Assembly: GCA_023150875.1 (NCBI GenBank)
Contig: JAKLKC010000035.1
Coordinates: 1-64,000 of the forward strand
DNA length: 64,000 nucleotides
Reading direction: 5' to 3'
DNA from: Myxococcota bacterium
GTDB lineage: Bacteria > Myxococcota_A > UBA796 > UBA9615 > JAKLKC01
The translations under genes and the position numbers were made by a program. The notes beneath the pieces are model-generated. The model ran no database searches. It saw nothing but the letters and a program-made list of their open reading frames with translations, and was not told the DNA's origin. Position 1 is the stretch's first letter. Every line of letters begins with the position of its first letter. Shown piece after piece: positions 1 through 4,121 of this stretch.

Positions 1-87
1 GGCCCCGGGCCGGCTGGCCGCGGGTCGGACGGTCCCAGGAGGGAGCACGGACCGGGCCAGCCGGTGCGATGCATCGTAAGTACTGGT

Positions 88-100
88 TTCACCTGGTGAA
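88..100. repeat. 13-bp perfect inverted repeat in an AT-richer patch
   Basis: TTCACC-T-GGTGAA is a perfect dyad. It sits in a short patch (about 66-105) that is clearly less G+C-rich than its surroundings and also holds the 10-bp palindrome CGATGCATCG (67-76). The position, 3' of the kinase gene, could be a regulatory or promoter region for a gene beyond the left edge, but no such gene is visible. Confidence 0.35.
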
Positions 101-132
101 TCCGTCCACGGGGCGCGCGGTGCCGGCCCCGC

Positions 133-186
133 TGTCCTCCCTGGAGGACAGGAGAGGGGGGGGCGAAGCGTCCTCCCGGGAGGACA
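133..186. repeat. pair of near-identical 18-bp palindromes, 36 bp apart
   Basis: TGTCCTCC-CT-GGAGGACA occupies 133-150 and GTCCTCCC-GGGAGGAC occupies 170-185 (flanked C...A, 169-186). The two share the half-site GTCCTCC/GGAGGAC and their centres are 36 bp apart. They lie immediately 3' of the kinase stop codon. Two copies of one dyad suggest paired binding sites or two small hairpins. No T-run follows either, so classical terminators are less likely. Confidence 0.5.
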
Positions 187-216
187 CCCGCGCCCCCCCC
201 CGGCGCGGCGCCGCCC

Positions 217-2598
217 TTACGGGCGGACCTCCAGCTCCGCGTCCCCACCCGCTCCGGAGAGCCGGAGCAGCACCGCTCCCCAGGGCTCCGCCGGATCCGG
301 AGTGGCGCCGGTGCCCGGATCCGCGGGGACCAGGCGCACCCGCACGGCCCCGAGGTCGCCGGGGACGACGTAGGTCGCCTCCGGGGGAGCCCGGGGCGGC
401 ACCCGGGGAGGGGGGCCGGGGACCATCAGGGCGTCCACCTCGGTGACGCCCAGGGAGCGGGCCGCCGCCAGCGCCGTCTCCACCACGCGGAAGGGGAGGC
501 TCCGGTCGGCGGCCAGCAGCAGGCCCGCGGCCCCCTCCGGCCTCTCCCCGGGACCGGCGAGCCTCGGGGCGAGGGCGCCCGCCAGCAGCCGGGGAGCCGG
601 CCCCCCGTCCACCTCCAGGGCGGCGACGGTGGCGATCCGCTCCCCGTCCACGAAGACCGCCTGCCTGCCGATCTGCACCGCTGGCGCCACGGCGGCGGGG
701 GGAGGGGCCCGGCCCGTGGGGGGATCCAGGTGGGACCAGGCGGCGAACTGGGGGGCGAGGGCGCTCCACAGGCGGGCCCTCTCCCCGGACAGACCGAGCA
801 CCAGCGCCCCCTCCGCCCCCGTCGCCAGGCACAAGGAGGCGGCGGCGATCCCCGCGGCGCGGCGGAGCCGGCGGGCCTCCCCGGGGCCTGCGCCCTCGAT
901 GGAGGCCCTCACCTTCCGGAAGACCCCCCAGGCCACGACCGCCAGGGCGAAGGCCGAGAGGGCCAGCACCGCCTCCCGGCGCCGGGCCAGCGCCACCACC
1001 GCCTCCGACCGCGCCGCCCGGTCCAGCCCCGCGATCCAGGCCCCCGCCGCCGCCGCGTCCTCCCTCGCCAGGGCGGCGGCGGCCGCCGCCCCCACCGCCG
1101 CCACCGCCGCCAGGCCCCGGGTCGCGGCGTCCCTCCCCGGAAGGAGCGCCGCGCCTGCGAGCCACGCCCCGGCCCCCACCGCCGCCACCAGCGCTCCGCC
1201 TCCTCCCCCCGCCCAGGCGCCGAAGGCGGCGGCGGCCAGCACCCCCGCGACTCCCCTCCACCGGCTCCGCGCCCCCGCCTTCCGCCGCTCCCCCGGCGCC
1301 ACCCCCAGCGAGAGGAGCAGCGCCGCCGTCGCCGCCCCGCCCAGGAAGCGGGCGGCGTGGGTCTCGCTGGAGCCCGCCTGGAAGACCAGGAAGCGGGCCG
1401 CGGGATCCAGCTCCGCGGAGTGGGCGCGGATCGCCGCCCACCCCGTGAAGGCCCCCAGCAGCCCCAGGGTCCAGGGGATCCCCGCCGCCGCCACGCCCGC
1501 CGCCCCCGGTCCGCCCCGCTCCCGCCCCGCCCGCGCCGCCGAGGCCGCGGCGATGACCGCGAAGGCGGCCATCACCGCCCACGCGCCCCATCCCCCCAGC
1601 CGCGCGATCTCCGCGGGCGCGTGCTCGCCGCGGTAGCCGATCCCGAGCACCAGGCCCGCCATGGCCGCCCAGATCCCCGCCCGTCCGGCCGAAGCGCGCC
1701 ATCGAGGCGGAGCGGGGCGGGGCGGCGCCCTCCCGCCGGGCAGAGCGGCCAGCACCTCCTCCATCGAGGCGGGGCGCCCCGACGGGTCCTTGGCCAGCAT
1801 CCGGGCCACCAGGGACTCCACCTCGCCCGCCACCGCCACGCCCCGGTCCGAGAGGCGCGGCGCCGGCCGGGAGAGGTGGGCCTGGAGCAGGTCCACGTAG
1901 CCCTCGGCGACGAAGGGAGGGGCCCCGGCGAGGAGCTCGAACCACATCGCCCCCAGGGCGTACACGTCGGCCCGCCGGTCGACGCCCCGGCCCCACCACT
2001 GCTCCGGCGGCATGTACGAAGGCGTACCGACCGGCGCCCCGGTGATGGTGACGGGCCCCGCCTCGGGTCCGTCCGCCCGGGCCACCCCGAAGTCCAGCAC
2101 CCGCACCGAGATCCGCCCGCCGTCCGCCCCCTCTTCCAGGAACACGTTCCGGGGCTTGAGGTCCCGGTGGACGACGCCCGCCCGGTGGACCGCGGCCAGC
2201 ACCTCGGCCACCGCGCGGACGATCCCCGTCGCCTCCTCCGGTGGGAGGCGTCCCCGCTCCGCCAGCGCCCGGCCGAGGTCGCGCCCCCGGAGCAGGTCCA
2301 TGACCCCGAAGGGGTGGCCCCCGCGGGTGGCACCGAAGGCGCGGATCGGCACCACTCCGGGGTGGCCCACGTCCCGGGCGACCCGGGACTCCCGCTCGAA
2401 CCTCAGGGCCCCCGCGGGGTCCTCGGCGGCGGTGCGGGACAGCACCTTCAGCGCCACCCTCGCCCCCGTGGCCTCCTCGATCCCCTCGTACACGAAGCCC
2501 GCGCCACCGCTCCCGAGGACCCCCAGGATCCGGTAGCCCGGGACCTCGTCCCCCGGCCCCAGCGGCCCCGCCGCCGCGGCCTCCGCCCCCTCGCTCAA
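217..2598 (-). CDS. Ser/Thr protein kinase with multi-TM segment and ExbD/TolR-like C-terminal domain
   Basis: 793 aa. The start is taken as TTG at 2598, which overlaps the stop of the upstream regulator in a TTGA. Residues about 22-290 form a Hanks-type kinase: glycine loop GSGGAGFVYEG, catalytic Lys in VALKVL, catalytic loop HRDLKPRN (about 143), metal-binding LDFGVA (about 168), and MPPEQ where APE is usual. About six to eight hydrophobic helices fill residues 300-615. The tail, about 636-724, resembles the periplasmic ExbD/TolR fold: a VFVDGERI strand, then LLLAADRSLPFRVVETALAA followed by a GVTEVDAL strand. Inferred role: a membrane-anchored kinase that phosphorylates cytoplasmic targets on sensing an envelope signal. 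Coupling to the AAA+ regulator suggests a shared pathway. The kinase is certain from its motifs; the ExbD assignment is by eye. Confidence 0.93.
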   Translation of the reverse strand: MSEGAEAAAAGPLGPGDEVPGYRILGVLGSGGAGFVYEGIEEATGARVALKVLSRTAAEDPAGALRFERESRVARDVGHPGVVPIRAFGATRGGHPFGVMDLLRGRDLGRALAERGRLPPEEATGIVRAVAEVLAAVHRAGVVHRDLKPRNVFLEEGADGGRISVRVLDFGVARADGPEAGPVTITGAPVGTPSYMPPEQWWGRGVDRRADVYALGAMWFELLAGAPPFVAEGYVDLLQAHLSRPAPRLSDRGVAVAGEVESLVARMLAKDPSGRPASMEEVLAALPGGRAPPRPAPPRWRASAGRAGIWAAMAGLVLGIGYRGEHAPAEIARLGGWGAWAVMAAFAVIAAASAARAGRERGGPGAAGVAAAGIPWTLGLLGAFTGWAAIRAHSAELDPAARFLVFQAGSSETHAARFLGGAATAALLLSLGVAPGERRKAGARSRWRGVAGVLAAAAFGAWAGGGGGALVAAVGAGAWLAGAALLPGRDAATRGLAAVAAVGAAAAAALAREDAAAAGAWIAGLDRAARSEAVVALARRREAVLALSAFALAVVAWGVFRKVRASIEGAGPGEARRLRRAAGIAAASLCLATGAEGALVLGLSGERARLWSALAPQFAAWSHLDPPTGRAPPPAAVAPAVQIGRQAVFVDGERIATVAALEVDGGPAPRLLAGALAPRLAGPGERPEGAAGLLLAADRSLPFRVVETALAAARSLGVTEVDALMVPGPPPRVPPRAPPEATYVVPGDLGAVRVRLVPADPGTGATPDPAEPWGAVLLRLSGAGGDAELEVRP

Positions 2599-4121
2599 GG
2601 CCCGCCCCGCCTCAGCCCGAACGCCCGGATCAGGTCGTTCAGGTGGGAGCGGGCGACGTCCAGCCGCCGAGCCGCCTCGGAGACGTTCCCGCCGGACGCC
2701 TCCAGGGCCTCCGCCACCAGCCGGGCCTGGAAGCGTCGGGTGGCCTCCTGGAAGGTCGCGGCCCCCGCCTCCTCGGGATCGGGGCGGTCGGGGAAGACGT
2801 GCCGGGCCGACACCGTCCCCGCCCCCTCCCCCGCGGCGCGGATCCCCGCCGCCTCCACGGCGTGGCAGAGCTGGCGGACGTTCCCCGGCCACTCCGCGGC
2901 CGCCGCCGCCGCCAGCGCCCCCGGGCCCAGCTCCAGCCGGGGCAGCCGGTGGCGCCGGCACGCCTCGTCCAGGGCGTGGCGGGCCAGGAGGGGGACGTCC
3001 CCGGCCCGCTCCCCGAGGGAGGGCACGCGGATGGGCAGGACCAGCAGGCGGTAGTACAGGTCCTCGCGGAACCGACCCTCCTCCTTCGCCCGGGCCAGGT
3101 CGGCCCGGGTGGCGGCGATCACCCGCACGTCCGCCACCTCCGGACGGGTGCTCCCCAGGCGGTAGTACTTCCGGGACTGGAGGAGCTGGAGCAGCTTGGC
3201 CTGAGCGGGCGGCGGGAGCTCGGCCACCTCGTCCAGGAGCAGGGTCCCCCCCTCCGCGGCGGCCACCTTCCCGTCCACCCTGCGGGAGGCGGTGGAGTGG
3301 GCCCCCGGCATGGCGCCGAACAGCTCGCTCTCCACCAGGTTCTCGGGCAGGGTGGCGCAGTTCAGCTCCACGAAGGGCCGGCGGGCGCGGGGGCCGGCGT
3401 CGTGGATGGCCCGGGCGATCTCGGTCTTGCCCGTCCCCGTAGGGCCGGTGAGCAGGACCCCCACGTCCAGGGGGGCCACCAGGGCGACCTGCCGGAGGAG
3501 GTCCGCGAAGGCGGGGCTCCGGCCGACCATGCCCTTCAGCCCCAGGCGCTCCCGGTAGGGGAGGGTCGGGTCCCGCTCCTCGCGCTCCCGCTCCCGCGCC
3601 AGCAGCCGCGTCGCCAGGGGCCCCAGGTGGGTCGCGAACGCCTCGGCCCGGAGGCGATCCCCCTCGTCGAAGGGCCCCGGGGCGGCCCGGCCCTGGAGGT
3701 AGAGCACCCCCACGGCCCGCGCTCCCCCGACGGGGGCGCACAGCACCGCCCGGATCCGGTTCGCCGCGACGCTCGCCTGGCCCTGGAAGCGGGGATCGTC
3801 CACCGCCGACGCGGTGCTGACCGTCCTCCCCGTGGACAGGGCCTCGGCGACGATCCCCCGGGAGATCTCCGCGCGGATGGACGCGACGTCCCCGTCGGAG
3901 CACGCCCGGGCGGTCCACCACCGGGGCGACCCGGCGCCGTCGCCGCCCTCGTGGAGGGCCAGGTAGCCCCGCGTCGCCCCCGTGACCCCCACGATCAGCC
4001 CCAGGGCCTCCCGCAGGAAGTGGGGCAGGTCCTCCGCCTCCCCCAGCTCCAGCAGCGCGAGGTACAAGTCCCTCTCGACGCGGAGCCAGGCGAGCTCGCG
4101 GTCCCGAGGATCGTCGGACAC
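2595..4121 (-). CDS. GAF-AAA+-Fis transcriptional regulator (enhancer-binding-protein type, altered GAFTGA loop)
   Basis: 508 aa, ATG start with GGAGGC upstream. Residues about 20-180 are GAF-like. An AAA+ domain follows (about 200-430) with Walker A GPTGTGKTEIA, Walker B GGTLLLDEVAEL and the sensor region RFREDLYYRLLVLPI. A Fis-type helix-turn-helix ends the protein (GGNVSEAARRLDVARSHLND). Architecture and length match sigma54-dependent activators. However, the loop that should read GAFTGA and contact sigma54 reads GAHSTA after ELFGAMP. That suggests loss of sigma54 contact, so it may regulate another polymerase form or act as a repressor. No phosphoacceptor receiver is present, so input is probably through the GAF domain and/or the kinase encoded just downstream. 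Confidence 0.95.
   Translation of the reverse strand: MSDDPRDRELAWLRVERDLYLALLELGEAEDLPHFLREALGLIVGVTGATRGYLALHEGGDGAGSPRWWTARACSDGDVASIRAEISRGIVAEALSTGRTVSTASAVDDPRFQGQASVAANRIRAVLCAPVGGARAVGVLYLQGRAAPGPFDEGDRLRAEAFATHLGPLATRLLAREREREERDPTLPYRERLGLKGMVGRSPAFADLLRQVALVAPLDVGVLLTGPTGTGKTEIARAIHDAGPRARRPFVELNCATLPENLVESELFGAMPGAHSTASRRVDGKVAAAEGGTLLLDEVAELPPPAQAKLLQLLQSRKYYRLGSTRPEVADVRVIAATRADLARAKEEGRFREDLYYRLLVLPIRVPSLGERAGDVPLLARHALDEACRRHRLPRLELGPGALAAAAAAEWPGNVRQLCHAVEAAGIRAAGEGAGTVSARHVFPDRPDPEEAGAATFQEATRRFQARLVAEALEASGGNVSEAARRLDVARSHLNDLIRAFGLRRGGP

Follow-up and report, generated by a model that had tools for sequence, protein, structure and literature searches.

A Hanks-type receptor kinase of Myxococcota with membrane and periplasmic parts related to TolQ-TolR/ExbB-ExbD stators

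The kinase gene and its locus

The window, i.e., the whole stretch of 64,000 nucleotides that was analysed, carries at the end of its contig a gene for a Ser/Thr receptor kinase preceded by a gene for a transcriptional regulator (Table 1). An earlier sequence-only reading had given the coordinates of the kinase gene exactly without stating the strand, which is minus. The TTG start of the gene overlaps the TGA stop of the upstream regulator gene. The kinase domain scored 133.6 bits with PF00069 (cut-off 31.7) and was also recovered, at the same positions, by a genome-wide kinase scan. The core Hanks motifs claimed by the sequence-only reading (VALK, HRDLKPRN and DFG) are all present in the translation. 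With the curated cut-off and the Lys, HRD and DFG motifs met, the gene product is a Hanks-type Ser/Thr protein kinase. Outside the kinase domain, no curated model of Pfam or NCBIfam was over its cut-off in this protein. Folding of the whole window protein without relatives resulted in a mean pLDDT of 39 and was not usable.

Table 1. Features of the kinase locus, with positions in the window and residues of the encoded proteins
Feature	Position	Strand	Details and basis
Ser/Thr receptor kinase gene	217..2598	(-)	793 aa; TTG start at 2598, stop 217-219; translation
Protein kinase domain	1753..2535	(-)	residues 22-282; VALK/HRDLKPRN/DFG intact; Pfam PF00069 E 1.1e-38
Predicted helix TM1	1630..1680	(-)	residues 307-323, in to out; peak of hydropathy (nine members) at residue 315
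TolQ/ExbB-like region, TM2-TM4	1264..1611	(-)	residues 330-445; ExbB-core match at residues 370-424
Predicted helices TM5-TM8	919..1251	(-)	residues 450-560; hydropathy peaks 455, 478, 503, 551
Predicted helix TM9	793..855	(-)	residues 582-602, in to out; hydropathy
ExbD/TolR-like periplasmic domain	379..729	(-)	residues 624-740; hhalign, AlphaFold core, structural match
C-terminal extension	220..378	(-)	residues 741-793; partly conserved in family alignment; low model confidence
Partner regulator, GAF - AAA+ (sigma54-activator type) - Fis-like HTH	2595..4121	(-)	508 aa; Pfam
GAHSTA replacing the GAFTGA loop of sigma54 activators	3288..3305	(-)	alignments
End of contig	1..216		216 bases between the kinase gene and the contig end

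A profile scan of the source genome revealed 61 kinase matches. For these, 59 regions were fetched, the window's own match and the second piece of a split match being omitted, and the regions yielded 55 kinase ORF entries, some of them duplicated across regions; ORFs extending past the fetched 4.2 kb escape detection. Among these 55 entries for the other kinases of the genome, none had a match to the ExbD profile, and the kinase domain was followed by at most two predicted helices.

A family of nine kinases with a partner regulator

In a phylum-wide search with the tail of the protein in 377 genomes, seven relatives with strong matches were located within long open frames (E 4e-18 to 8e-8), and one more relative was matched with E 0.002. 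Full-length kinase relatives were present in 8 of the 11 regions fetched (phmmer E 6e-94 to 1e-48), and the phmmer matches of these eight span the kinase, the membrane part and the tail. A profile of the non-kinase part of the resulting nine-member family, A4, located the family in 9 of the 377 sampled genomes of the phylum, the source genome included. No member besides the window's was found within the class (71 genomes), and none was revealed by an earlier relatives search (504-aa query, 93 genomes) or by the first contig scan. HRD and DFG are present in all nine kinases, as is the Lys motif, which was read by eye. Not counted as members were a protein of genome G116 (L204), which has a kinase but another architecture, a locus of G225 (L205) without kinase or tail match, and an ExbD-like frame standing alone in G189 (L206).

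The regulator gene is located directly upstream of the kinase gene in 9/9 family members, and the regulators of the other eight are 44-57% identical to that of the window. As suggested by the Pfam matches of the window's regulator (Sigma54_activat, E 1.4e-57, 194.5 bits; GAF_2; HTH_8), the partner shares its GAF, AAA+ and Fis-like HTH domains with the sigma54 activators (bacterial enhancer-binding proteins), and its AAA+ domain contains a Walker A motif, GPTGTGKT. It departs from them in the GAFTGA loop, which is replaced by GAHS(T/A)A in all nine partner regulators. The same replacement occurs in 5 of 12 further regulator homologues (L111, L112, L114, L115 and L117), and the string GAHSTA was not found in the literature searched. 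It is possible that this subgroup of GAF-AAA+ activators does not act through sigma54. As a separate observation, the regulator homologues L109 (G000:C152) and L116 (G000:C158) adjoin kinases without predicted membrane helices, the C-terminal part of which resembles, by eye, a formylglycine-generating-enzyme domain.

On the 3' side of the kinase, a gene for a membrane protein of 107-116 aa was present in 8/8 other genomes, starting 63-760 bases past the kinase stop. At E <1e-30 this third gene was detected in exactly those eight of the 377 genomes and in no other. No Pfam family could be assigned to its products. The first helix of this protein matched the ExbBs by hhalign (93%, E 3.3e-7, 29 columns), and its match to TM2-TM4 of the kinase extends over 107 columns (96%, E 1.7e-9). 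The third gene was not found in the genome of the window; since the contig stops 216 bases past the kinase gene, its absence there cannot be distinguished from a gap.

Homology to stator proteins and loss of ion-path residues

The tail had been described as ExbD/TolR-like in the sequence-only reading, and both strings quoted in support of this (VFVDGERI and GVTEVDAL) were found in the translation. Neither Pfam nor NCBIfam gave an ExbD/TolR match in the tail or elsewhere in the window protein. PF02472, when run over the whole source genome, detected 8 clear ExbD matches elsewhere and not the tail, so that membership of ExbD/TolR by the curated cut-off of this model is not met by the protein or by its tail. 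Searches with the tail as a single sequence against Pfam, NCBIfam and the sequences of solved structures returned nothing useful.

Comparison with relatives was more informative. Queried blind against the 71 genomes of the class, the tail retrieved, besides itself, 12 weak matches (E 1.5e-4 to 0.009), half of which (6/12) are ExbD/TolR proteins by sequence; ExbDs make up a handful among the thousands of genes in the genomes giving these matches. On an HMM built from the relatives' ExbDs, which had been gathered with another protein as query, the tail scored 20.7 bits, with none of 2000 shuffles exceeding 5.9, and it outscored each of six genuine ExbDs of the same genome held out of the model. 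By hhalign, the window tail alone matched the ExbDs with 94% (E 1.4e-7, score 50.2), versus 2% and a score of 19.75 for the best of 200 shuffled tails and no more than 0.2% for the remaining parts of the window protein. Removal of the 6 ExbD rows that had been chosen using the tail as query left a match of 77% (E 2e-5), and the tail of the nine-member family reached 96% (E 3.8e-9). Profile comparison with shuffle controls thus places the likeness of the tail to ExbD/TolR well beyond chance, and the earlier description of the tail held, though the curated models miss it.

The AlphaFold model of the tail, obtained with 25 ExbD rows in the alignment, had a core pLDDT above 90, and its best structural matches were ExbD and TolR (ExbD 8p9r: Z 9.6, 72 residues, rmsd 1.8), the top unrelated chain reaching Z 7.6. 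As evidence the model is partly circular, its alignment including ExbDs. Chains of MreB and NTPDase, which matched it with Z up to 7.6, were treated as sharing a common arrangement only. Apart from the family, the nearest separate relative of the tail that was seen is the stand-alone 177-aa ExbD-like frame of L206 (G189:C139), which matches it with E 2.8e-7.

Hydropathy averaged over the nine family members displays exactly nine peaks, the sequence-only reading having counted six to eight hydrophobic helices. Lys and Arg are enriched in the loops on the kinase side of the window sequence. By the charge rule, some seven-helix variants of this sequence outscore the nine-helix one; the three best variants are odd-numbered, and the best even variant scores below them. 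The helix count being odd (nine), the tail is predicted to lie in the periplasm. The predicted arrangement agrees with the known topology of TolQ and TolR in that TM3 runs in to out, TM4 out to in, and the tail follows the nine helices on the outside. Profiles, structural match and odd helix count together meet what was asked of a periplasmic alpha/beta domain homologous to ExbD/TolR. Neither of the two outcomes that the sequence-only reading had named as refuting it was observed: profile searches did reveal ExbD/TolR similarity, and the number of TM helices is not even.

The membrane part is related to the other stator half. TM3-TM4 matched the ExbB/TolQ core by hhalign with E 1.3e-4 (54 columns, score 38), while of 100 locally shuffled sequences the best scored 20.9 and none was better than E 0.055; a second hhalign comparison, of the TM2-TM4 region with the ExbB set, resulted in E 1.9e-4. 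PF01618 was not over its cut-off in the window protein, and Pfam scans of the eight other members gave just two weak matches of the expected families: PF01618 in L199 (14.0 bits vs the cut-off of 22.9, E 0.043), and PF02472 in L203 (E 0.17); L197 had none. TM5-TM8 are not known to have relatives and gave no Pfam match.

At E <1e-6, the search with A4 revealed 30 places in the sampled genomes, of which nine are the members. By eye, the other 21 comprise 14 ExbB/TolQ-like sequences, each lying on A4 positions 14-194, and 7 ExbD/TolR-like ones, each lying on positions 333-468. Pfam was run on 20 of them (L231 was omitted) and supported the family in 17/20, with PF01618 over the cut-off in 8 and below it in 2 and PF02472 over the cut-off in 6 and below it in 1; neither was detected in the remaining 3 (L216, L217 and L225). 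Searched against the sequences of solved structures, the profile of the family retrieved neither ExbB nor ExbD. By hhalign with controls and by these genome matches, the channel core (TM2-loop-TM3) is homologous to TolQ. Two further observations were made among the A4 matches. L216, L225, L230 and L232 are short TolQ/ExbB-like proteins that lack the large cytoplasmic loop and stand alone in other genomes, no kinase or ExbD having been found in their 1.5 kb flanks. L217 (G205:C83), truncated by a contig end, has no kinase and is similar to the family's first membrane half (E 1.9e-11).

The Asp of ExbD and the TM3 Thr of TolQ are known as ion-path residues of stators; the corresponding ion-path Asp of MotB is named in PMC9389320. 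The ExbD Asp motif was present in 25/25 ExbD rows versus 0/9 kinases, and the single N-terminal helix with a conserved Asp, by which ExbD/TolR proteins are defined, is not there. The TM3 Thr was present in 15/15 ExbB/TolQ sequences caught by a strict motif, which missed 23 of 38, versus 0/9 kinases, seven of which have Arg at this position; the kinases thus fail the criterion of a polar residue in TM3 that lines the ion path, a defining feature of MotA/TolQ/ExbB proteins. Only one of the eight small TolQ-like proteins has the Thr. The Glu neighbouring its position is kept in 9/9 kinases. Near the outer end of TM9, an acidic residue is found in 7/9 members, being Asp in six and Glu in the window (region of residues 576-616, about 751-873). 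An equivalence of this Glu, E594, with the ExbD Asp was considered but rejected, the two being located at opposite helix ends. The proton-pathway residues of stators are missing from all nine kinases. Because the defining residues and the curated cut-offs are not met, the protein counts as a Hanks kinase and not as ExbD/TolR or TolQ, with a sensor evidently derived from both.

A putative envelope sensor built from stator parts

We favour, with confidence evenly balanced, a transmembrane receptor kinase that employs a degenerate TolQ-TolR (ExbB-ExbD) stator as its sensor and reports the state of the cell envelope to the adjacent regulator. The anatomy, the gene order, the homology and the loss of ion-path residues are shown at the sequence level; the mechanism is inferred. 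In this view, a cytoplasmic kinase is joined to nine helices, the last of which leads into the periplasmic ExbD/TolR-type domain, and TM2-TM4 have descended from a TolQ/ExbB-type protein minus its large cytoplasmic loop. The small TolQ-like protein of the eight other genomes probably joins the same membrane complex, an inference in itself, and together with the TolQ-like helices it may form a ring around a TolR-like dimeric sensor. The TolR-like domains would pair and rearrange on binding peptidoglycan or another envelope partner, the ligand being inferred, and this rearrangement would bring together or turn the two kinase domains. The kinase may then phosphorylate the adjacent regulator, a step likewise inferred, and alter gene expression.

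Several properties of known proteins are of relevance to this scheme. The periplasmic domain of TolR forms a strand-swapped dimer and possesses a cryptic peptidoglycan-binding activity, shown when truncated (PMC4646322), and ExbB and ExbD assemble 5:2 (PMC9389320). In bacterial Ser/Thr receptor kinases, dimerisation is important for activation, and sensors of the PASTA type bind peptidoglycan (PMC6213207). The sequence-only reading had proposed that an ExbD-like sensor would link the kinase to proton-motive-force machinery or peptidoglycan, which is supported. The link to the machinery is stronger than was claimed, because the membrane part resembles ExbB/TolQ and a small TolQ-like gene is present in eight genomes. 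Direct sensing of the proton motive force is nevertheless inferred to be less likely than sensing of the envelope or peptidoglycan by a device made of stator parts; as the kinase lacks the residues that carry protons, the state of the envelope rather than proton flow is most likely what is sensed.

The protein shares with TolQ-TolR/ExbB-ExbD stators the order and topology of a three-helix TolQ-like core and a TolR/ExbD-like periplasmic domain, and the nearest separate relatives of its tail are ExbDs of the same phylum. It differs from them in that both halves are fused to a kinase in one chain, the TolQ-like part lacks the large cytoplasmic loop, and the ion-path residues are missing. The stators of the gliding motor (AglRQS) were counted among the comparison systems, their relationship being only presumed. 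With PASTA-type kinases (PknB, PrkC and Stk1) it has in common a cytoplasmic Hanks kinase and an extracytoplasmic domain of a kind capable of binding peptidoglycan (PMC6213207), whereas it contains nine helices instead of one and an ExbD/TolR-like domain instead of PASTA repeats. A published fusion of a kinase with ExbD or TolQ was not found in the literature searched, most subscription papers being outside its scope.

A bolder reading, which we consider less likely than not, is that these proteins represent an undescribed class of receptor kinases, each a Hanks kinase fused to the two halves of a rotary-type stator (TolQ/ExbB and TolR/ExbD) and served by a dedicated small TolQ-like subunit. 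A three-gene cassette of Myxococcota would then turn mechanical or proton-driven changes of an envelope motor complex into protein phosphorylation and the control of genes.

It remains possible that the stator-derived parts are merely an anchor and a scaffold for dimers, the signal being cytoplasmic and received, e.g., by the GAF domain of the partner, and that the kinase has other targets. In favour of this, the regulator carries its own GAF sensor domain, and some regulator homologues adjoin kinases lacking any predicted membrane helix (C152 and C158). Against it, the periplasmic domain is conserved in the nine members with invariant residues, among them Q348 and D404 (numbering of the first row of A4), that a mere anchor would not need.

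Less probable is a complex that still conducts ions, in which the small TolQ-like protein would form a ring around the kinase helices and ion flow or membrane potential would directly move the TolR-like part and switch the kinase, which would then be a true sensor of the proton motive force. The small gene adjoining the kinase in 8/8 other genomes and the acidic residue that 7/9 members have towards the outer end of TM9 speak for such a complex. However, the ExbD-type Asp motif is missing in 9/9 kinases, the TolQ-type TM3 Thr occurs in 0/9 kinases and 1/8 small TolQ-like proteins, and the positions of the TM9 residue and the ExbD Asp are at opposite helix ends. That an unrelated periplasmic domain resembles ExbD by chance or convergence, as the lack of matches in curated libraries might suggest, is very unlikely in view of the shuffle controls, the retrieval of ExbD and ExbB relatives with the profile of the family, and the presence of both stator halves in the correct order and topology.

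The known extracytoplasmic sensors of Hanks kinases are mostly PASTA repeats and propellers, and how bacteria perceive mechanical or energetic conditions in their envelope is poorly understood. On the favoured reading of a degenerate stator acting as sensor, stator parts have been reused without their ion path, which would add a new sensor type to the Hanks kinase family and perhaps an unrecognised route of envelope sensing. The stator-built kinase and its adjacent regulator would offer a compact, testable system for envelope sensing.
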